Source: an uncultured Gammaproteobacteria bacterium
GTDB taxonomy: Bacteria; Pseudomonadota; Gammaproteobacteria; HK1
Reading direction: 5' to 3'
Length of the DNA stretch: 64,000 nucleotides
NCBI GenBank assembly: GCA_958295465.1
Contig: OY282353.1
Coordinates: 5,137,001 to 5,201,000, forward strand
Part shown: one piece after another, positions 4,857-26,231 of the stretch
Position numbering within the stretch: the first letter of the stretch is position 1
Layout: each line of letters starts with the position of its first letter
Notes under the pieces: generated by a model
Databases searched by the model: none
Seen by the model: only the letters and a program-made list of their open reading frames with translations
What the model was told of the DNA's origin: nothing
Translations under genes and position numbers: made by a program

Positions 4857-5231
4857 CGGAGGCGAGTCGATTTCCCGTCGCCGCGCCCCGGCCTGTACGA
4901 TTCGGCGCAAGGCGCGGTGTCTCCTCGATCGAGGAAGCCCCCGGCAGATTGCGCACCTGTTCGAGCGGGTCGTGGCCGGTATCGACACCGGTCTTTCTCA
5001 TGTCGATCCTCCGAGCTTGCGATATCCGAACACGAAGACATCCCCACTCATGGCCTGTCGAGCGGGCTCGATCGGACCACCGTGATACTTCGCGGATTGC
5101 CCGGATCCGTGCCGACTTGTCCTGATCCCGGCGCGGGGTTCAGGGGAAGAACCATGATGAGGCTGCGGTCGAACCGCCGGAATCGATCGTCCGATGCCGG
5201 TTGGACGACCTTGCCGGTCCGGGGTCCGCGG
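4857..5231. other. Intergenic stretch with a possible truncated gene start
   Basis: No complete gene is convincing between the convergent glycosyltransferase and ureG. On the minus strand an ATG at 5001 is preceded by a strong Shine-Dalgarno (GGAGGATCGAC) and begins MRKTGVDTGHDPLEQV, but the reading frame soon becomes a low-complexity reverse shadow of the upstream gene and stops at 4756. This may be the surviving start of a lost gene. Confidence 0.3.
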
Positions 5232-5861
5232 TCACGGCGTGCCGCCCGGACCCAGCATGCCCTGGTGCACGATGAAGTCGACGACCTGCTCCACGCCCTG
5301 TCCCGCCCTGAGATCGGTGAACACGAAGGGGCGTTCGCCGCGTTGCGCCCCGGCGTCCCGCTCCATCACCTCCAGCGAGGCGCCGACGTAAGGCGCGAGG
5401 TCGGTCTTGTTGATGATCAGGAGGTCGGATCGCGAGATCCCGGGGCCGCCCTTGCGCGGGATCTTGTCGCCCGCGCAGACGTCGATGACGTAGAGGGTCA
5501 GGTCACTCAACTCGGGGCTGAAGGTCGCGCTCAGGTTGTCGCCGCCGCTTTCGATGAAGACCACTTCCAGGCCGGGGAAGCCGGCGATCAGCTCCTCCAC
5601 CGCGGCCAGGTTCATGGAGGCGTCTTCGCGGATGGCGGTATGCGGGCAGCCGCCGGTTTCGACCCCGCGGATCCGGTCCGAGGCGAGCGCCTGGTGCCGG
5701 GTGAGGAACTCCGCGTCCTCCCGGGTATAGATGTCGTTGGTCACCACCGCGAGGTCGTAGCGCTCGCGCATCCTCCGGCAGAGATTGAGCAGCAGGGTGC
5801 TCTTCCCGGAGCCCACCGGACCGCCGATCCCCACCCGCAGCACTTCATCCGGAATGACCAC
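5232..5861 (-). CDS. ureG: Urease accessory GTPase UreG
   Basis: A 209-residue SIMIBI-class GTPase that delivers nickel to apo-urease with UreE, UreF and UreD. The P-loop [10 protein letters not shown] lies close to the N-terminus, followed by VVTNDIYT, the metal-binding [15 protein letters not shown] (Cys-Pro-His), [10 protein letters not shown] (Walker B region) and NKTDLAP (guanine specificity). The frame extends 110 codons further upstream, but that part is not UreG-like; GTG at 5861 gives the normal family length and starts [13 protein letters not shown], with AAGGA about 11 bases upstream. It is the last gene of the urease operon. A spacer of ~250 bases separates it from ureF, wider than usual for this pair. 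Confidence 0.95.
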
Positions 5862-6111
5862 GGTCGTCTCAATCCTTCGCGGCTTCGGCTCGGCGCCCGG
5901 CCTGGAAGATACCGCAATGGCGCAGTCGCCCGTTATCGGCTCCTGCCGTTGCAGCCGCCGGTTCCGCCGTATCGGATGCAGTGCGCCGAATATCCGAGGA
6001 CCTGTCCGTTCCGTCCATCTGTCGGGACACGCCGGGCTTCGAGCGTATCCGCGGCGGAAAGGTGGAGCACGTTCCTTCGCCCACGTGTTCCGCGGCGAGC
6101 ACTTCGATGGT

Positions 6112-6810
6112 TCACGAACGGTACAGGCGCGTGGCCTGCGTCTCGTGCAGGGCGCTCGCCACGGCCTGCCCGGGCGCTCCGGCCGCGACATCCGCCGGCG
6201 CGATCGAGAGGGCCGCTTCGCACGTGGGGGGAAGGGTGCCCGCGAGGTCGAAGATCATCCGCTGTCCCGCGGACTGGCCGAGGGGGACCAGCTTGATCGC
6301 CGTCACGACCATGCTCTCCAGCCGCGCGTAGGCGAAGGAGACGGCGGCGGTGCGGGCGGATACACCGAACTCCGCGCCCGCGAGTGCGAAGGCGCAGGCG
6401 TAGCCGACCCGCCGATCGGCGCGCAGCGCGGCGGCCCGCCCGACTCCGAGCCCGGCAAGGACGCGCATCAGCGCCTGCCCCTGCTGCCGGTCCGTGAGCC
6501 GGAGTTCCGCCGATTCCCGGCAAGCCAGCAGCCAGACGCCGAGCCGGAGCGCCTCGCCGGTGCGCCCGGCCGACCAGGCGGCGTGCATCCCGGCGAGCAG
6601 GGGCACGTCGAGCCCGCAGACCGAATGCGAGAGCAGGCCCGCGATCCATTCGCGCGCCGAGTCTTCGTCCCGCGGGTTCCCGGCGTGGACCGCATACTCC
6701 ATGCCTTCGGAATATGCGTAGCTGCCGACCGGCGATGCAGCGCTCGCGAGTTGCAGCACTCGCACGAGCGCCGGAGTGTCGCTCTGCAACCGGTCCTTCA
6801 CATCGCCCAT
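6112..6810 (-). CDS. ureF: Urease accessory protein UreF
   Basis: A 232-residue helical accessory protein that works in the UreDFG complex activating urease. The N-terminal [20 protein letters not shown] is the conserved UreF opening (commonly LPVGGF/Y-S-Y-S-x-G-L/M-E). Length and the Ala/Leu-rich helical body fit the family. It lies between ureE and ureG on the same strand, as in most urease operons. Spacers of about 285 bases upstream and 250 bases downstream show no convincing gene. Confidence 0.93.
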
Positions 6811-7950: not shown

Positions 7951-9633
7951 GGCCAGGGGGAGCTCGACGGCTGGTTCGCAGTGCAGGCGCTCTCCGTCGG
8001 CGCGCACCTCGTAGGTCTGGGGATCGACCTCGATCCTGGGCTGGGCGTCGTTGAGCCGCATCTGCGCCTTGGTGACCCTGCGGGCGCCGGAGACGGGCAC
8101 GCAACGTTTGGCCAGCGCGAGCCGCCCTCCGACGTCGTCCGCGGCGGCAGCGGCGGAGAGGAACGTGACGGAGGTGCCGGCTGTCGCACCCCCGAAAGCC
8201 GCGAACATGGGGCGGTAGTGCACCGGCTGGGGCGTCGGGATCGAGGCGTTGGGGTCGCCCATGGGCGCCGCGGCGATGAGCCCGCCCTTGATCACCATCG
8301 ACGGCTTCACCCCGAAGAACGCCGGTTTCCACAGGCACAGATCCGCGAGCTTGCCGGGTTCGACGGACCCCACCTCGCGGGCGATGCCGTGGGCCAGGGC
8401 CGGGTTGATGGTGTACTTCGCGACGTAACGGCGGGCGCGGAAGTTGTCGTTGCGGGCGGAATCCTCGGGCAGCGGCCCGCGCTGCACCTTCATCTTGTGG
8501 GCGGTCTGCCAGGTCCGGCTCACGACCTCGCCCACCCGTCCCATGGCCTGGGAGTCCGAGGCGATCATCGAGAAGGCCCCGAGGTCGTGCAGGACGTCCT
8601 CCGCCGCGATGGTCTCGCGGCGGATGCGCGATTCCGCGAACGCCACGTCCTCGGGAATGGCCTTGTCCAGGTGATGGCAGACCATGAGCATGTCGAGATG
8701 TTCGTCCACCGTGTTCACGGTGTACGGACGGGTCGGATTGGTGCTCGACGGAAGGACGTTGGCCTCGCCGCAGGCGCGGATGATGTCCGGTGCGTGGCCG
8801 CCCCCGGCGCCCTCGGTGTGGTAGGTGTGGATCACCCGCCCGCCGATGGCCGCGAGGGTCCGCTCGACGAAGCCCGACTCGTTCAGCGTATCGGTATGGA
8901 TGCAGACCTGGACGTCCTCGGCATCGGCCACCTTCAGGCAGCAGTCGATGGCGGCCGGCGTAGTCCCCCAGTCCTCGTGCAGCTTGAGACCCATGGCGCC
9001 GGCGCGCACCTGCTCGTGCAGCGCGTCGGGGAGGCTGGCGTTGCCCTTGCCCAGCAGACCGAAGTTCATCGGCCAGGCATCGCACGCCTGCAACATGCGC
9101 GCGATGTTCCAGGGCCCCGGGGTGCAGGTCGTGGCCGCCGTGCCCGCCGCCGGCCCGGTGCCGCCGCCGATCATCGTGGTGACCCCCGACATCAGCGCCT
9201 CCTCCACCTGCTGCGGGCAGATGAAGTGGACGTGCGCATCGAGCGCGCCCGCGGTGAGGATCCGGCCCTCGCCGGCGATTGCCTCGGTCCCCGGACCGAT
9301 GACGAGGTCCACGCCCGGCTGGACGTCGGGGTTGCCCGCCTTGCCTATGCCTGCGATGCGGCCTTCCTTGATGCCCACGTCCGCCTTGACGATGCCCCAG
9401 TGGTCCAGGATGAGGGCGTTGGTGATGACGGTGTCCACCGCCTCGCCGGCCGCGCGCTGGCTCTGCCCCATGCCGTCCCGGACGACCTTGCCGCCCCCGA
9501 ACTTCACCTCCTCGCCGTAGTGGGTGCGGTCCTCCTCGACCTCGATGACCAGAGCGGTGTCGGCCAGCCGCACCCGGTCGCCCGTGGTGGGCCCGAACAT
9601 CTGCGCGTACGCGGCGCGGTCGATCCGTGCCAT
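7930..9633 (-). CDS. ureC: Urease alpha subunit UreC
   Basis: The 567-residue catalytic subunit, hydrolysing urea to ammonia and carbamate at a di-nickel site. Visible: HVHFICPQQ (first His pair), GLKLHEDWG (Lys carbamylated to bridge the nickels), [11 protein letters not shown] and [15 protein letters not shown] (metal His), and [20 protein letters not shown] (mobile flap Cys and catalytic His). The start [19 protein letters not shown] is the normal family start and the length is typical. It begins five bases after the ureB stop. All residues expected for an active enzyme that I can check are present. Confidence 0.97.
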
Positions 9634-9638
9634 GGTCT

Positions 9639-9986
9639 TCAGCTCCCCTCGGGCGACCGGCGGTCCAGGGCGCCCATTACCGCGCCGTTGAACCCGAACA
9701 CCGTGCGCGCGCCGGCATGGGCCACGAGCACGACCTCGCGTTCCTGCCCGGGCTCGAAGCGCACGGCCGTGCCTGCGGGCACGTCGAGCCGGAAACCGCG
9801 CGCTGCGGCGCGGTCGAAGCGCAACGCCTCGTTGGTCTCGCTGAAGTGGTAGTGGGAACCCACCTGCACCGGGCGGTCGCCGGTGTTCGCGACCTTCAGC
9901 GTCACGCGCTCGCGGCCCGCATTGAGCTCGATCTCGCCGGCCTCGACGAGCACTTCACCCGGAATCAGCGGATCGGAGGGCGGCAC
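9639..9986 (-). CDS. ureB: Urease beta subunit UreB
   Basis: A 115-residue structural subunit of urease. [19 protein letters not shown] and [19 protein letters not shown] are the conserved family segments. The frame continues upstream to 10073, but GTG at 9986 is preferred: it has a strong Shine-Dalgarno (AAGGAG, 6 bases away) and gives the usual length. It is coupled to ureC across five bases; ureA lies about 210 bases upstream, a large gap for subunits that are often adjacent or fused. Confidence 0.94.
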
Positions 9987-20348: not shown

Positions 20349-21077
20349 TCACATCGCCGGCGAGGCGCCGCGTTCCGGCGAATGCCCGCCCGGCGCCGGC
20401 GCTGCGTCGAGGAAGCGCTGCATGGCGCCGATCTCCAGCGTCGTCAACGGATTGGACAGCCCGATGTCCGGCGTGCCTCGAACCCCCAACAGCATACGGG
20501 CGAAGAACTCCTCCGGAGACAGGTCTCTCGCCATGTCATGGAGAGACTCCGCGGGGTTCTCGCTGCCGGGAACCGGGGCATCGTGACATCCTTGGCAATG
20601 CCGCCGATAGACTTCACCGGCCTCGCGCTCGTCCCCCTCCCCCTCCCGGTCGAGAAGGAAGTACGTGACATCGAAGGGCGCTTCGCCGGCCAGCTCCGCC
20701 ACGCTCGAGAGAAAGCGGGTCCTCTCACCCGATCCGAACAGGTCCCGAAGCCGCCTGATGCGCGGGATGAAGCCGCTCCCGGCGCCGGAGCGCCTCCCCG
20801 CGGCCGCCGCGTAGCGCCGGCATATCAAGGGCAGGGTGGCCAGCGCGGCCGAAATGCGATTCCGCAACCCCCGGTACCGCGGGCCGCCGCGTTCGGCTCG
20901 ATAGAACTTCCGCGCGTCTGCCAGCATCACCAGCAGCTCGGCCGGACAGAGCAACCGATCGCGAAGCTCGAACGATGCGGCCGCGGCGTTCGGCGCCGCC
21001 GCGGCCAGGATGCAGAGCAGGACGCCTCCTGCAGCGTTATTCAATAGAGACTCGACGTTCCATCGGCAGACTCTCAT
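20349..21077 (-). CDS. Exported c-type cytochrome (single haem)
   Basis: A 242-residue protein with an N-terminal signal peptide (AAGGVLLCILAAAAPNAAAA) and a single CxxCH haem site (YRRHCQGCHDAP) at about residue 170, followed by a typical cytochrome c tail with MARDLSPEEFFARMLLGVRG and ALQRFL-like ending (IGAMQRFLDAAP). The first ~130 residues after the signal are not a known domain to me. ATG at 21077 has GGAG five bases away and overlaps the rhodanese gene by 41 bases. It is the last gene of the sulfur operon and could carry electrons released by sulfur oxidation in the periplasm. Confidence 0.75.
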   Translation of the reverse strand: MRVCRWNVESLLNNAAGGVLLCILAAAAPNAAAASFELRDRLLCPAELLVMLADARKFYRAERGGPRYRGLRNRISAALATLPLICRRYAAAAGRRSGAGSGFIPRIRRLRDLFGSGERTRFLSSVAELAGEAPFDVTYFLLDREGEGDEREAGEVYRRHCQGCHDAPVPGSENPAESLHDMARDLSPEEFFARMLLGVRGTPDIGLSNPLTTLEIGAMQRFLDAAPAPGGHSPERGASPAM

Positions 21078-21966
21078 CCGCGCTCCACTCCACCATGGAC
21101 CCGTCGTAGAGCGCAGCGTTGCCGTTGCCCATCAGCTCGCTGCTGACGAACCAGCCCAGGGAGGCCCAGTGGCCGGTGTTGCAGAAGGCGATCTGATTCG
21201 ACTCGGGGTCGACGTCGGCGAGGGCATAGAGCTGCTCCAGCTCCGCGGCGGGCCGGAAAGTGCCGCCGCCGTTGACCGTCAACCAGCTCTCCGGCAGGCT
21301 CCGGGCGGTCGGGATGGTGCCATTGCGCATCGATCGGGGATGCCGGTTGATGCCGACGTACTGGTGGTTGGGACGCATATCGACCAGGGTGATCCCGTCG
21401 TCGTCGATGGCGTTCTCGACGTCCTCCCTGGTGATCAGCATGCCGGTGCGCAGATTCGGCGCGAAGGTCCGGGGCTCCGGCTTGTTGTTGCCCTTTTCGA
21501 TCCTGTTCGTTTCGTCCGCCGCGTATGCAAGATAACCGCCGTTCAGTATCGATACGTCGTCGTGGCCGAGGACCTTGAACGTCCAGTACATGCGGGTTGC
21601 GCTTCCCATGTCGACGGCGTTCTTGCCGTGGTGGTAGATCACCACGTGGGTGTCGTTGTCGATACCGAGGGCGCCGATCAGCGTGGCGAGATCTTCCGGC
21701 TTCGACAACTGGCCCGGTACCTTGTCGACCTCGCTCCTCCAGCCACCCTTCAGGTAGTCGGTGTACACCGCGCACGGGATGTGTCCCTGCAGGTACGCGG
21801 TCCTGGAGCCTCCGTCCAGCGGGTTGCGAATATCCAGCACCCTCACGCCCTCGTCGCAGGCGTGATCCTTGATCCAGCCGACGTCGACGAGCGGCTCGGC
21901 GGCTATCGACAGTGAGCAGATGCCCATGGCCGTAACGATGGCGGCTGATTTCAGAAGACGATTCAT
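21037..21966 (-). CDS. Periplasmic two-domain sulfurtransferase (rhodanese)
   Basis: About 309 residues with a signal peptide (MNRLLKSAAIVTAMGICSLS) and two rhodanese domains. The first lacks a catalytic Cys; the second has IAFCNTGHWASLGWF, giving an active-site Cys in a CNTGHW loop rather than the usual CRxGxR. ATG at 21966 has AGGAGG upstream. Such enzymes (SseA/thiosulfate sulfurtransferase type) move sulfane sulfur from thiosulfate or mercaptopyruvate to thiol or cyanide acceptors. Position in the operon suggests the substrate is a periplasmic sulfur compound. Confidence 0.85.
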   Translation of the reverse strand: MNRLLKSAAIVTAMGICSLSIAAEPLVDVGWIKDHACDEGVRVLDIRNPLDGGSRTAYLQGHIPCAVYTDYLKGGWRSEVDKVPGQLSKPEDLATLIGALGIDNDTHVVIYHHGKNAVDMGSATRMYWTFKVLGHDDVSILNGGYLAYAADETNRIEKGNNKPEPRTFAPNLRTGMLITREDVENAIDDDGITLVDMRPNHQYVGINRHPRSMRNGTIPTARSLPESWLTVNGGGTFRPAAELEQLYALADVDPESNQIAFCNTGHWASLGWFVSSELMGNGNAALYDGSMVEWSADESLPMERRVSIE

Positions 21967-22001
21967 GCTCGTTCCCTCCTCAGGTGGTGGTTGCTTCCAC
22001 T

Positions 22002-22199
22002 TCAAAGTGTGATGCACCGATCGTTGTCCAGCACTGCTTCCAGCGCTCGATCCCAATCGGCCGTCGACATTGCCCCGATGTCGCCATCGATGACAAATTC
22101 GGTGCTTCGAAATCTTTCCGGCAGGCTCCGTATCGCCGGTGCGGTTCGATGGTCTTCGAACAGCCGGGTACGCAGCACCAGCAGGCGTATTTCAGACAT
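22002..22199 (-). CDS. 65-residue protein in DsrH/TusB position
   Basis: A small soluble protein, beginning MSEIRLLVLRTRLFEDHR and ending DRCITL with a Cys close to the C-terminus. It overlaps the preceding DsrF-like gene and follows DsrE- and DsrF-like genes, the position DsrH/TusB occupies in dsrEFH/tusDCB operons, but it is shorter than DsrH and I see no clear homology. Could be a reduced or divergent third subunit. Confidence 0.5.
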   Translation of the reverse strand: MSEIRLLVLRTRLFEDHRTAPAIRSLPERFRSTEFVIDGDIGAMSTADWDRALEAVLDNDRCITL

Positions 22200-22473
22200 T
22201 GATCACGAACTCCGCATCTTCGACGAGCTGGTAGAAATCACCATCGGAGATGCCCGGTACTTCGGGGTCTTCATACAGGGATTTCGGTGAGATTTCGGCA
22301 AGCTCGACCAGTTCGGCGAACTGCTCCATTTCGGGCACGACTTCGAGCCGTCCATGAGCGAACACCAGTGCTACGTCGTGTCCGAACACGGTGATCCCCG
22401 CCGCGACGCGCATGGCTTCCAGCGGGTCCCGGCGCGCGACGACGAGGACCGACTTCGCGGCGATTCCGTTCAC
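22192..22473 (-). CDS. DsrE/DsrF-like sulfur-relay protein (second)
   Basis: A 93-residue protein, starting with GTG at 22473 in a GTGA overlap with the preceding stop. It has a beta strand SVLVVARRDPLEAMRVAAGI, then VFGHDVALVFAHGRLEV, resembling the DsrE/F fold where a first strand is followed by a helix and a second strand. It has no cysteine, so it would be a structural partner, as TusC/DsrF is to TusD/DsrE. Moderately confident about the fold, less about the role. Confidence 0.6.
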   Translation of the reverse strand: MNGIAAKSVLVVARRDPLEAMRVAAGITVFGHDVALVFAHGRLEVVPEMEQFAELVELAEISPKSLYEDPEVPGISDGDFYQLVEDAEFVINV

Positions 22474-22760
22474 AGCGAGACCACTCGGCCCGCGGACCCC
22501 AGCATCCGGCTGTGATCGGTCTGGCTGCCAAGGGTCAGCGGGCACGAACCGCCCGGCATCGCCTGGCTCCAGGAGTGTTCGCACACCACCGCTTCAGCCG
22601 CGGATCCGGCGCAGGCGACGACGGTGGAGTCGGACAGCGCCCGTACCCCGTCACCGGTGAAGAAGATGGAGAATTCCACGTCCTTCCTCCGGCAGGCAGC
22701 GGAGAATCCGCGCAGATAATCGCCTGAGCCGCGGTGGGCGACGATGAACAGAATGGTCAT
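22470..22760 (-). CDS. DsrE-family sulfur carrier
   Basis: A 96-residue protein beginning MTILFIVAHRGSGDYLRGFS, with VEFSIFFTGDGVRAL, the core pattern of the DsrE fold (Rossmann-like strand, helix and a F-x-GDGV loop). Cysteines in VVACAGSAAEAVVCEHSW and GGSCPLT are candidates for the persulfide carrier. Start overlaps the upstream gene as ATGA and stop overlaps the next as GTGA. Together with the DsrF-like and TusA genes it forms a cytoplasmic sulfur relay. Confidence 0.72.
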   Translation of the reverse strand: MTILFIVAHRGSGDYLRGFSAACRRKDVEFSIFFTGDGVRALSDSTVVACAGSAAEAVVCEHSWSQAMPGGSCPLTLGSQTDHSRMLGSAGRVVSL

Positions 22761-23668
22761 CCGCGCCTTCCAGCCATCGCGCGAGCCATGAAGGCGATGC
22801 AGAGAATCGCGACGGCGCCCAGCCCCGCGGCCAGCCACGGAATGCGCCCGAGGCCGGCACGCGGCGCGCCGAAGCTCTCGACGGAGCGGCCGCGGAGGCC
22901 GTCGAGATGGACCCTGGCCGGAGCGGTGGGGTCTCGAAGCAGGAGACGGACGAGATGGACGACCGCTTCGCGGGTATCCCGGGCAAGCAGCAGCAAGGAA
23001 CCCTCGCCGTCGTGCCGGTACAGCAACGGGGTGTCCCGCTGCGGACCGGACAGCCAACCCGCTTCTTCGAACGATTGCGGATACTCGAGCCGCGTGACGG
23101 TTCCGGTGCCGAAGAACGAACGGACGTCGTCATCCAGTGCGATGTACTCGTCTCGCATCGGATCGGTGTAGAAACGGCTCCGCAACATGCTTCGAAGCCT
23201 CCCGGCGCCCCGTATCCGGGAGCCGGGAAGCGCCTCGGCGTCGCCCTGCCAGACCACCACGCGAGATTGACCCAGCAGAAAGAGCATTCCCGCGACAAAA
23301 TCCTTGTCGGACTCGCCGCCGCCGAACACGACGGCGGTCCGCGCAGGCTCCAGGCCGAACGCGCCGGCCAGCCAGTTGATGTCGCGAAAGCTCGCGGATG
23401 CTCCGTCGGGATGAAGAAACTGCGACGGCGCCATGCAGAGCGCGCCCTCGACGCTGCCGCCGGCGCAGGTGTCCGCTTCACGGGTATCGACGAACACCGG
23501 AGACTCCAGCGCGACAATCACGTTCGGATGGGTGGTGGCGGAGATGGCGCCCGCGGCTTGCCGGGAGAGCGTGAGCACCGCGAGCAGCAGCATCGGCAAC
23601 GGCGCTCCCGGGCGGAATCCGGACCGGCGCCGCCGGCGTCGAGGATGTTCGGCGTGTCCTGGATCCAC
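22757..23668 (-). CDS. Tail-anchored rhodanese-like protein without catalytic Cys
   Basis: About 303 residues: an Arg-rich start and hydrophobic signal (MLLLAVLTLSRQAAGA), a rhodanese-like domain (SPVFVDTREADTC, VEGALCMAPSQFL), and a C-terminal transmembrane helix (IPWLAAGLGAVAILCIAFMA). At the position of the rhodanese active-site loop the sequence reads VVFGGGESDKDF, without Cys. It should sit in the periplasm, anchored by its tail. Start is uncertain: TTG at 23698 (14-base overlap with the upstream gene), GTG at 23668, or ATG at 23593. It may bind rather than transfer sulfur. Confidence 0.6.
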   Translation of the reverse strand: MDPGHAEHPRRRRRRSGFRPGAPLPMLLLAVLTLSRQAAGAISATTHPNVIVALESPVFVDTREADTCAGGSVEGALCMAPSQFLHPDGASASFRDINWLAGAFGLEPARTAVVFGGGESDKDFVAGMLFLLGQSRVVVWQGDAEALPGSRIRGAGRLRSMLRSRFYTDPMRDEYIALDDDVRSFFGTGTVTRLEYPQSFEEAGWLSGPQRDTPLLYRHDGEGSLLLLARDTREAVVHLVRLLLRDPTAPARVHLDGLRGRSVESFGAPRAGLGRIPWLAAGLGAVAILCIAFMARAMAGRRG

Positions 23669-23684
23669 CGGGGGGCAGCCGCGT

Positions 23685-23960
23685 TCAACACCCGCCAAAG
23701 TGCTTCTTCCTCGGCGCCGCTTCGCCCGCTGCCGCCGCCGGCGGGGGATTCTCCAGGTAGTATCCGACCAGCTCGAATACGGTCAATTGCCCGTAGTCGC
23801 TACCCAGGTCGATGAGATCGAATTCCTCCATCGGCTGGGGCTTGCGAGCCGCCTCCACCTCGGCGGGCGACATGGACGTGTAGGGAAACAGGGCCGCATA
23901 AACGGCCAGCGTGCCGGCTAGCGATACGATGCAGAAGATGAATACTTGCAGGCGCGGCAT
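23685..23960 (-). CDS. Membrane-anchored protein with C-terminal Gly-Gly-Cys
   Basis: A 91-residue protein: N-terminal transmembrane anchor (MPRLQVFIFCIVSLAGTLAV), then a short soluble region (PMEEFDLIDLGSDYGQLTV), a Pro/Ala linker and a C-terminus KKHFGGC. By the positive-inside rule the C-terminus faces the periplasm. A Cys at the end of a flexible Gly arm recalls the GGCGG swinging arm of SoxY, but there is no SoxY domain, so this is only analogy. ATG overlaps the upstream stop by one base (TGATG). Function unknown. Confidence 0.65.
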   Translation of the reverse strand: MPRLQVFIFCIVSLAGTLAVYAALFPYTSMSPAEVEAARKPQPMEEFDLIDLGSDYGQLTVFELVGYYLENPPPAAAAGEAAPRKKHFGGC

Positions 23961-24046
23961 CAGGAGTCGTCCCTGGTGAAGCTGACGTACATGGCGTACA
24001 TCGCAGCGAGGAAAGCGATCAGTGCCGCGATTGTTTCAAAGTCCAT
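23960..24046 (-). CDS. 28-residue membrane peptide
   Basis: A very short gene: MDFETIAALIAFLAAMY starts an uninterrupted hydrophobic helix, ending in TRDDS. It begins one base after the upstream stop (TGACATG) and its stop overlaps the next ATG, so it is coupled on both sides. The layout resembles small subunits of membrane complexes such as CcoQ or CydX. Both junctions argue that it is translated; function is unknown. Confidence 0.6.
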   Translation of the reverse strand: MDFETIAALIAFLAAMYAMYVSFTRDDS

Positions 24047-24047
24047 G

Positions 24048-24263
24048 TCAGCCCTCGGATTTGTAATGCCCGATCAGCGTGTCCAGCTCGATCGCCTCGC
24101 CGGTGTCGGGATTGAGCACCGGCGGGGTGAAGAAAGGCGTGCCTTCCCGGGACCTTGCAAGCTCGTCCAGCGGCTGGATGAACACGTGGACCATGGAGGC
24201 GGCCGAAATCAGTCCCACCACCGCGGAAAATATCGTGAGCTGGAGCTGCTTCCGGATTTTCAT
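24048..24263 (-). CDS. 71-residue single-pass membrane protein
   Basis: One N-terminal transmembrane helix (IFSAVVGLISAASMVHVFI) and a soluble part with FFTPPVLNPDTGEAIELDTL, ending HYKSEG. The basic start (MKIRKQ) places the C-terminal part in the periplasm. It lies between tusA and the 28-residue peptide in the same operon, one of three consecutive small membrane proteins. No known family recognised. Confidence 0.65.
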   Translation of the reverse strand: MKIRKQLQLTIFSAVVGLISAASMVHVFIQPLDELARSREGTPFFTPPVLNPDTGEAIELDTLIGHYKSEG

Positions 24264-24281
24264 GGTGCTGGCCGCGGTGGA

Positions 24282-24587
24282 TCAGTTCTTCTTCAGCAGG
24301 ACCTGCCAATGGCGTGACCGGCGGAGCGTCCCGAGATGGGTACCGCCGTTCTCCTCGATGATCGGCGGGAGCGCTTCCATGGAGGTGGGGTTGTCGATCT
24401 TCACCTCGATGACGTCGCCGGAGCGGGCCTTGCCGAGGGCGTTCCGCGTGAAGATCTGAGGTCGAGGGCAGGAGTCGCCGATGCAGTCCACGACCGTCGT
24501 CGCGGTGACGGTCTCACCACCATCCAGGGTCACGGGAGCTCCCGTTGCCTGGTTCTCCGGCTCGGTTTTCCTTCCGAAAAGGCCCAT
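24282..24587 (-). CDS. TusA-like sulfur carrier protein
   Basis: A 101-residue cytoplasmic protein of the TusA/SirA fold. The carrier Cys is in DCIGDSCPRPQIFTRNALG (the CPxP motif), followed by KARSGDVIEVKIDNPTS, the family's typical strand. TusA receives sulfur from a sulfurtransferase or permease and hands it to DsrE/TusD. The adjacent YeeE/YedE permease halves are known partners: YeeD, a TusA homolog, sits beside the thiosulfate importer YeeE in other bacteria. An unusual N-terminal extension of about 30 residues precedes the domain. Confidence 0.9.
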   Translation of the reverse strand: MGLFGRKTEPENQATGAPVTLDGGETVTATTVVDCIGDSCPRPQIFTRNALGKARSGDVIEVKIDNPTSMEALPPIIEENGGTHLGTLRRSRHWQVLLKKN

Positions 24588-24684
24588 GGGGCAGTCTCCT
24601 CGGCGACAGGGAATTCACTGACGCCGTTCCCGTGTACATCACATCGCGGTCACTCGGAGCTCGAAGAGCGACTGCGAACGACGA

Positions 24685-25287
24685 TTACCCGATGCTCGCC
24701 ATTCTTCCGGCGCCGGGACGTTCCCTGCGTACTATGGATCGATAGATCGCGAACAGCACGGCGAATTGCACCAATCCGAAAACGATCGCGGGAATTCCGG
24801 TCTTCTCCTGCAACGTGGCCGCGTTCGAAAAGCCCAACTGGAGGGCTTCCAGGGCCGGTTCTCCGGACATGGCGGCGGGGGCGGGCGGCCAGTAAATGAA
24901 AGACCACACCAGCGAGAAGAGGAACATGCCCGCGAACGTGTAGATGAGCGCCCACATGGCGCCGACGTTGCCCTCGCCCGCCTTGACCCATGTCGATACC
25001 GTGCAGGCGCCGGCCAGCACCATTCCGATTCCGAACAGGAACAGCCCGATAATCTGATTGAGGCCGACGTCGAATCGCATCGGATTGCCTTCGCCGATGG
25101 TGATGAAACCGGTGAATCCGAGCGTCAATATCATCATCGCGACAAGCAGGGCCTTGGTGTTGCGGTAGGTTTTGAAAAGCATCGCGTCACGCAGCGCGGC
25201 GGTATTGCAGAATCGGGATCGTTGCACGAGAAGGCCGACCGCGGTGCCGAACACGAAGGCCAGGACACATTCTCCGACGACGCTCAT
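24685..25287 (-). CDS. YeeE/YedE-type sulfur permease, second half
   Basis: A 200-residue protein with about five transmembrane helices. It carries VGLLVQRSRFCNTAALRD and LAGACTVSTWVKAGEG, the Cys-bearing motifs that line the thiosulfate path in YeeE/TsuA. Together with the next upstream gene it reconstitutes the two pseudo-symmetric halves of one YeeE/YedE protein. Separate halves are known in other sulfur bacteria (PmpA/PmpB type). Gap between the two genes is one base. It likely imports thiosulfate or another sulfane compound. Confidence 0.85.
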   Translation of the reverse strand: MSVVGECVLAFVFGTAVGLLVQRSRFCNTAALRDAMLFKTYRNTKALLVAMMILTLGFTGFITIGEGNPMRFDVGLNQIIGLFLFGIGMVLAGACTVSTWVKAGEGNVGAMWALIYTFAGMFLFSLVWSFIYWPPAPAAMSGEPALEALQLGFSNAATLQEKTGIPAIVFGLVQFAVLFAIYRSIVRRERPGAGRMASIG

Positions 25288-25288
25288 G

Positions 25289-25780
25289 TCACACTCCCAG
25301 GATTCGTTTGTATATCAGGGATCCCACCCAGGCACCGGCGATGATTCCGCTGATGGCCAGATAACCCCCCAGGTTCAGCTCCGGTGTCAGTCCGAAGAAC
25401 GTGCTGACGTTGCAGACGAAGGCGAGCCGGATCCCGATACCCATGAGGAGCCCGCCGATGGTGATCATGATCCACTCCGAGAGCCGGCGCGGGTAGCGGA
25501 TGAAGAATTCCCCGCTCATGACCGCGCCGATGACCGCACCGAACAGCATGCCCAGGCTGATGTAGATCTTCCAGTAGCCCGCGTCCGGCTCGAACACGAG
25601 CTGCCAGAAGGGAATTCTTCGAAGGTCGTCGCCCATGAAGAATTCCGCGATGAGGCCCGTCATCATCGTTTCACCGCCGCCTACCGTCCAGGCGCCGAGC
25701 TGCAGAAACAGAAAGATGTCGAGCACGGCGATCGCGGCGAGGGCGATCACCGGGTCGAGGGTCTTGCGGAAGAACTCCAT
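25289..25780 (-). CDS. YeeE/YedE-type sulfur permease, first half
   Basis: A 163-residue protein with four or five transmembrane helices; SLGMLFGAVIGAVMSGEFFI and GIGIRLAFVCNVSTFFGL match the GxRxAxxCN motif of YeeE/YedE permeases. It is the first gene of the minus-strand sulfur operon, and its stop almost touches the start of the second half. The upstream spacer (142 bases) is shared with a divergent ribbon-helix-helix gene. Confidence 0.85.
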   Translation of the reverse strand: MEFFRKTLDPVIALAAIAVLDIFLFLQLGAWTVGGGETMMTGLIAEFFMGDDLRRIPFWQLVFEPDAGYWKIYISLGMLFGAVIGAVMSGEFFIRYPRRLSEWIMITIGGLLMGIGIRLAFVCNVSTFFGLTPELNLGGYLAISGIIAGAWVGSLIYKRILGV

Positions 25781-25922: not shown

Positions 25923-26231
25923 ATGTCGATCTACCTCGAACCCCCGGATGTGCTCGGACACATGTTCAATGCCTGCACGACCGAACAAATCAATGAATTC
26001 GCGCCGCAAAAGCGCGGTTTCAGGATCCATGGCCACAGCACCACCATTCGACTGGAGGCGGCCTTCTGGCACGTGCTCGATGAAATGGCACGGGATTCGC
26101 GCATGGAGATGCCGGGGCTGATCGAGATGATCCACGATCACTGTCTTGTCGCCAACGACAAGAACCTCGCTTCGTGCCTGCGCGTGATCTGTCTGAAGTA
26201 CACCGAATCCACCCTGGAACAGGATGCCTGA
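25923..26231 (+). CDS. Ribbon-helix-helix domain protein
   Basis: A 102-residue protein with RGFRIHGHSTTIRLEAAFWH and MPGLIEMIHDHC, the beta-strand and helix pattern of the RHH_4-type DNA-binding domain (PF13467-like), ending SCLRVICLKYTE. Such proteins are often transcription regulators. It is divergent from the sulfur operon, the natural candidate target, and overlaps the start of the next gene by eight bases. Confidence 0.7.
   Translation: MSIYLEPPDVLGHMFNACTTEQINEFAPQKRGFRIHGHSTTIRLEAAFWHVLDEMARDSRMEMPGLIEMIHDHCLVANDKNLASCLRVICLKYTESTLEQDA

Follow-up and report, generated by a model that had tools for sequence, protein, structure and literature searches.

Transfer of sulfur from TusA through DsrEFH type II to DsrC has been demonstrated in vitro (PMC13293266), and for the Dsr route both the carrier and the transporter are still at the stage of proposals (PMC3397948, PMC13293266). 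SoxT1A, a YeeE-like protein of Hyphomicrobium denitrificans that imports sulfur and not thiosulfate, has been called the sole importer demonstrated by experiment in dissimilatory sulfur oxidisers (PMC11582611). Here we analyzed a window of 64,000 nucleotides from an uncultured gammaproteobacterium (contig OY282353.1, positions 5,137,001 to 5,201,000), which contains an operon of twelve abutting or overlapping genes on the minus strand (positions 20349-25780). In the order of transcription these encode the two permease halves permA and permB, TusA, the small membrane proteins smp1, tiny and smp3, the rhodanese-fold protein rhdTA, a DsrE-like and a DsrF-like protein, a protein in the DsrH position, a secreted rhodanese and a cytochrome c (Table 1). 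All twelve had been noticed in a preliminary description made from the sequence alone, and all were found where it had placed them. We propose that the operon probably encodes an inner-membrane module for the import and relay of sulfane sulfur, which would feed cytoplasmic oxidation by rDsr in this genome, or by sHdr.

The YTD clusters of cable bacteria and sulfur disproportionators (YeeE-TusA-DsrE-Chp1-Chp2, with DsrEFH type II; PMC13293266, PMC13047784, PMC12998232) resemble the operon in that a YeeE-family permease, TusA and a DsrE with a single conserved cysteine are followed, in synteny, by divergent DsrF- and DsrH-like proteins. In contrast to the YTD clusters, the operon has a split permease, four genes (smp1, the 28-residue protein, smp3 and rhdTA) between tusA and dsrE, and a rhodanese and a cytochrome behind. 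The hosts differ as well, since the operon is carried by Proteobacteria that have, in addition, a canonical dsr cluster containing DsrEFH type I, whereas type II mostly accompanies reductive dsrAB. A different, YTD-like layout was found in four gammaproteobacterial metagenome-assembled genomes (MAGs; loci L095, L102, L105 and L108), with a full-length YeeE and TusA and, at a distance of a few kb, DsrE/DsrF-like genes; these loci score 97-127 bits with the DsrE and DsrF models of this operon. The SoxT1A module likewise has a YeeE-like importer for cytoplasmic oxidation, with a rhodanese, a periplasmic cysteine protein and a 56-residue single-pass protein nearby; however, its transporter is full-length, it serves sHdr and not Dsr, a DsbA-like protein takes the place of smp3, and as described it comprises neither a DsrEFH set nor a cytochrome (PMC11582611). 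PmpAB of Serratia and relatives and TsuA-TsuB (YeeE-YeeD) share with the operon the split halves, with one-to-one correspondence of the cysteines, and the TusA-like partner, but are described without periplasmic and DsrEFH parts, and TsuAB serves thiosulfate assimilation. SoxYZ with SoxXA works in the way proposed below for smp3: a cysteine in the glycine-rich C-terminal arm carries periplasmic sulfur, and a cytochrome acts as partner. Unlike SoxY, smp3 is membrane-anchored, ends on the cysteine itself and shows no SoxY homology (a search of the genome with TIGR04488 gave two SoxY matches, neither of them at smp3), and the N-terminal domain of the operon cytochrome differs from that of the SoxXA cytochrome. 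The preliminary description had known of no system with this gene set. Close YTD clusters do exist (PMC13293266), so that this holds for the membrane and periplasmic half, which has no described counterpart there. A literature search over open-licence papers yielded no description of the fixed twelve-gene set or of this half; the individual ideas of import and relay are already known.

A search with smp1 covered 369 genomes of the class and two congeners and matched in 10 further genomes, and a DsrF-like profile search over 84,980 species genomes gave 80 named loci. After removal of duplicates, 87 related loci were obtained, mostly from Alpha-, Beta- and Gammaproteobacteria, together with SAR324. 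All twelve genes are present in identical order in 54 of these 87 non-redundant loci. Three more have the complete set, but with the rhodanese gene or other genes from the ends at a different place, and most of the remaining loci are truncated at contig borders or have one to three genes missing or moved. The gene order thus recurs far beyond chance. A peculiarity of this assembly is ruled out: the preliminary description had suggested looking for the order with the small membrane proteins as queries, and both the order and these proteins turned out to be widespread. Carriers include Sedimenticola, Thiobacillus, Sulfuriferula, Thiorhodococcus, Magnetovibrio, Maritimibacter, Rhodobium, Thioglobus, Rhodocyclaceae and SAR324. 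The smp1 query and an smp3 profile, used independently, select the same 11 of the 369 class genomes, which ties both proteins to the operon. In a FastTree phylogeny of five concatenated proteins (midpoint root, support values not read), the loci of Thiobacillus and Rhodocyclales are separated, which hints at horizontal transfer. An alphaproteobacterial DsrF-like protein, searched on plasmids, gave no match. One locus from a MAG labelled Rhizobium (L036) closely resembles those of two Thiobacillus MAGs (L034, L035); this MAG is probably mislabelled or a mixed bin.

Table 1. Genes of the operon in the order of transcription, and the divergently oriented neighbour (positions in the window)
Gene	Product	Position	Strand	Basis
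permA	C-terminal half of split YeeE/YedE permease (PmpA type), 163 residues	25289..25780	-	PF04143, TsuA alignment
permB	N-terminal permease half (PmpB type), 200 residues	24685..25287	-	PF04143, TsuA alignment
tusA	TusA-like sulfur carrier, 101 residues, CPRP motif with Cys40	24282..24587	-	PF01206
smp1	71-residue single-pass membrane protein, predicted N-in, periplasmic tail	24048..24263	-	homologues in 78 loci
tiny	28-residue single-pass membrane protein, predicted N-out/C-in	23960..24046	-	homologues, codon changes
smp3	91-residue membrane-anchored protein, predicted periplasmic flexible arm, end -GGC	23685..23960	-	conservation
rhdTA	signal peptide, tandem rhodanese-fold domains, C-terminal membrane helix	22757..23698	-	PDB sulfurtransferase matches
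dsrE-like	96 residues, invariant Cys60	22470..22760	-	Pfam DsrE below cut-off
dsrF-like	93 residues, GTG start, no conserved cysteine	22192..22473	-	conserved motif, weak DsrF profile match
DsrH position	65 residues, no conserved cysteine	22002..22199	-	position, conservation
rhodanese	secreted two-domain rhodanese, 309 residues, active-type Cys262 (CNTGHWAS)	21037..21966	-	Pfam Rhodanese
cytochrome	c-type cytochrome, 242 residues: signal/anchor, helical domain, class I haem domain (CxxCH)	20349..21077	-	CxxCH, model
RHH_4	ribbon-helix-helix protein, probable regulator, divergent	25923..26231	+	PF13467

The genomic context connects the operon with sulfur oxidation in the cytoplasm. The genome of the window carries a canonical dsrABEFHC cluster elsewhere. 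In the class sample, dsrA is present in 10 of the 11 operon genomes and in 108 of the 358 others (Fisher p 7e-5, without phylogenetic correction). The one operon genome of this sample without dsrA (G277) has a cluster of lipoate-ligase, GcvH-like, DsrE, HdrB-like and HdrC-like genes, which is the content expected of the sHdr pathway; this assignment was made from the families present and not with a dedicated model. In this sample the operon is thus nearly confined to genomes that oxidise sulfur in the cytoplasm, which supports the uptake and relay suggested in the preliminary description. Among 48 operon genomes, which are not a random sample since 37 were reached via one profile search, dsrA exceeds the curated cut-off in 43 and is partial or split across contigs in two more; DsrE type I was found in 44, SoxB in 39 and SoxY in 40. 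For the genome of the window, SoxY is present together with a SoxB-like protein below the cut-off. Two further observations concern these genes in this genome. An open reading frame (ORF) that encodes pentapeptide repeats and an FRG domain lies between dsrE and dsrF of the canonical dsr operon (L113:13404-14924; contig C1, about 3751403-3752923), and a SoxY-like protein with an additional match to desulfoferrodoxin (L117:7727-8245) is followed by a SoxB-like 5'-nucleotidase-type protein under the SoxB cut-off (8185-9963).

The import function rests on the permease and its carrier. Both halves match PF04143 (cut-off 27), permA with 72.4 bits over profile positions 171-310 and permB with 83.4 bits over positions 1-150, and are thus complementary. 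By sequence they belong to the PmpAB subgroup of the YeeE/YedE (Sulf_transp) family; transport itself is a prediction. The permA protein aligns with residues 240-326 of TsuA, placing Cys123 on TsuA Cys293, and Cys27 and Cys95 of permB align with TsuA Cys22 and Cys91; these three are the functional cysteines of TsuA. Cys123 is kept in 74 of 74 sequences, Cys27 and Cys95 in 75 of 75. The TusA protein (PF01206, 47.5 bits, cut-off 28.6) has Cys40 in all 77 sequences. These invariant cysteines, together with that of the DsrE-like protein, support the suggestion that sulfur is taken up through the split permease and passed on to TusA and DsrE. Elsewhere in the genome of the window, a single ORF encodes the YeeE halves in swapped order, C-terminal half first, beside SoxY-like and SoxB-like genes (C1:2393150-2394277; L117 about 5088-6296). 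For thiosulfate, which had been suggested as the cargo, no particular support was obtained. An importer that passes intact thiosulfate through PmpAB for splitting by TusA, as in TsuA-TsuB, with the other proteins as accessories, would suit the alignment of both halves with the TsuA-TsuB structures, the three cysteines in place and a tusA gene next after the permease. We regard it as unlikely, because SoxB and SoxY in about 80% of the carriers make periplasmic handling of thiosulfate possible, SoxT1A does not import thiosulfate (PMC11582611), and TusA and DsrEFH type II of cable bacteria are unreactive with it (PMC13293266); the first two points make sulfane sulfur or polysulfide at least as likely a cargo.

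Behind TusA, the relay would continue in the DsrE-like protein, in which Cys60 is present in 80 of 80 sequences and Cys73 in 73 of 80. Its match to Pfam DsrE (E 0.0047) stays under the cut-off. The DsrF-like protein has a conserved EAMRVAAG.T.FGH motif, and the best canonical profile matches of the two proteins are DsrE and DsrF, both weak. Comparison with canonical DsrE, DsrF and DsrH by hhalign gave probabilities of 0.2-14%, which, together with the canonical set elsewhere in the genome, rules out that the trio is a canonical type I set. Neither is it a substitute for a missing one, as the canonical DsrE is present in 44 of the 48 operon genomes. The protein in the DsrH position was modelled with a predicted local distance difference test score (pLDDT) of 87 as beta-alpha-beta-alpha-beta; a fold search with this model found no PDB relative, so its identity as DsrH is by position only. 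Sequence searches of the PDB with the three proteins returned nothing.

A probable regulator, absent from the preliminary description, lies divergently next to the operon. The RHH_4 protein (PF13467, 80.8 bits) has homologues at 29 other loci, and histidine kinase and response regulator genes stand upstream in its place at L022, L024 and L033, which we read as two alternative control devices. Promoter and terminator scans gave results near chance level. Such neighbours, together with the full-length YeeE paralogues found in most carriers examined, would be expected if a small sulfur flux from PmpAB to TusA informed the divergent regulator, as proposed for SoxT1B/SoxR, while bulk import took place elsewhere. 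This appears improbable to us: twelve genes including rhodaneses, a cytochrome and a DsrEFH set are heavy for a sensor, the tie to cytoplasmic oxidation is strong, and in Thiorhodococcus no YeeE-family protein other than the two permease halves was found.

The membrane half of the proposed import module includes three small proteins, smp1, tiny and smp3, each with a single hydrophobic helix. Neither Pfam nor NCBIfam gave a match for smp1, tiny or smp3, nor for the DsrF-like and DsrH-position proteins, and PDB sequence searches with smp1 and smp3 were empty. Homologues of smp1 were found in 78 loci, and those of tiny in 78 sequences including that of the window, in a permissive search aided by position. 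Between the window and L018, 11 codons of tiny are changed, 8 synonymously and 3 non-synonymously. The homologues and the excess of synonymous changes show that the 28-residue ORF is real, and an in-frame fusion of smp1 and tiny at L027 and L040 further argues against noise. Since these two loci share one clade, the fusion may represent a single event; it fits a topology of N-in/C-out for smp1 and N-out/C-in for tiny. The smp3 protein ends with cysteine in 79 of 79 sequences, 59 of which terminate in FGGC and the others in close variants. Its arm beyond the last Pro-Pro is rich in alanine, proline and glycine and measures 15-21 residues in nearly all sequences. The charge bias of smp3 modestly favours N-in/C-out (36 versus 17 sequences); for many smp1 and some smp3 sequences the N-terminus had been cut back to the nearest methionine, which weakens the charge-based topology counts of both proteins. 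At L028, smp1 and smp3 share the identical end ASAKAISAPTGC and a 26-residue hydrophobic ORF lies between them; a recognisable rhdTA and cytochrome are missing there, and the rhodanese has a C-terminal helix of its own.

Signal-peptide-like N-termini are predicted for rhdTA, the secreted rhodanese and the cytochrome. The matches of rhdTA to PDB sulfurtransferases span both domains. It lacks a cysteine at the canonical rhodanese active site, and Cys78 and Cys88 are invariant (79 of 79; numbered from the TTG at 23698, the true start may be the ATG at 23593). The preliminary description had called it tail-anchored. The C-terminal helix is predicted here too, with a positive end in the charge-based topology analysis, but the signal peptide had been missed, and with it the domains should be periplasmic. 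The secreted rhodanese (PF00581, 83.7 bits, cut-off 22.2) carries Cys262 in 71 of 71 sequences. In the cytochrome the CxxCH motif is present and the Pfam domain falls just under the cut-off; the AlphaFold2 model (pLDDT 88.4) shows a helical N-terminal domain and a class I haem domain, and in a fold search only the latter had PDB relatives. That sulfide or persulfide is oxidised in the periplasm on membrane-bound thiols, with electrons going to the cytochrome and the permease as a minor exit path, would agree with this cytochrome, the two rhodanese-fold proteins with signal peptides and the terminal cysteine of every smp3, yet is very improbable, as L028 retains permease, TusA and DsrEF with its cytochrome lost or unrecognised and TusA and DsrEFH are cytoplasmic carriers.

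The gene set and its order, the conserved cysteines, the homology of the permease and TusA and the association with dsrA are observed; for the import and relay of sulfane sulfur we infer the direction, the substrate, the topology of the arm, the individual transfers and what the cytochrome does as follows. A periplasmic sulfane donor (a Sox product, persulfide or polysulfide) would be handled by Cys262 of the secreted rhodanese, and the sulfur loaded onto the cysteine at the C-terminus of smp3, which would serve as a flexible arm tethered to the membrane, comparable to the GGCGG arm of SoxY. This arm would present the sulfur to PmpAB, where a line of cysteines (C27, C95, C123) could hand it to Cys40 of TusA. 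From there it would pass to Cys60 of DsrE in a complex like DsrEFH type II and on to DsrC, or, in genomes lacking Dsr, into sHdr. The smp1 protein and the 28-residue protein may brace the permease, rhdTA may dock or position partners, and the cytochrome may take up electrons when sulfur is attached oxidatively. Several points weigh against this proposal. The direction of sulfur flow is not readable from sequence; 108 of the 118 dsrA-bearing genomes in the class sample lack the operon, which is therefore not needed for rDsr generally; operon genomes keep the canonical DsrEFH besides the second set; the assignments to DsrE, DsrF and DsrH are weak by sequence; and the topology of smp3 leans on a weak charge bias (36 versus 17).

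A more specific version is tentative. Here smp3 would be a tethered periplasmic persulfide arm, a non-homologous counterpart of SoxY. The arm would receive its sulfur oxidatively, the electrons going to the cytochrome of the operon, and would dock on a split YeeE channel that smp1 and the 28-residue protein brace. Sulfur might then stay bound to proteins along the complete path from the periplasm to DsrC, with no free small-molecule carriers involved.

The operon points to protein families without assigned function. For the passage of sulfur across the inner membrane in bacteria that complete its oxidation in the cytoplasm, it provides a defined candidate importer, which is present in cultured organisms (Sedimenticola, Thiobacillus-type, Sulfuriferula, Magnetovibrio, Maritimibacter and Thiorhodococcus).

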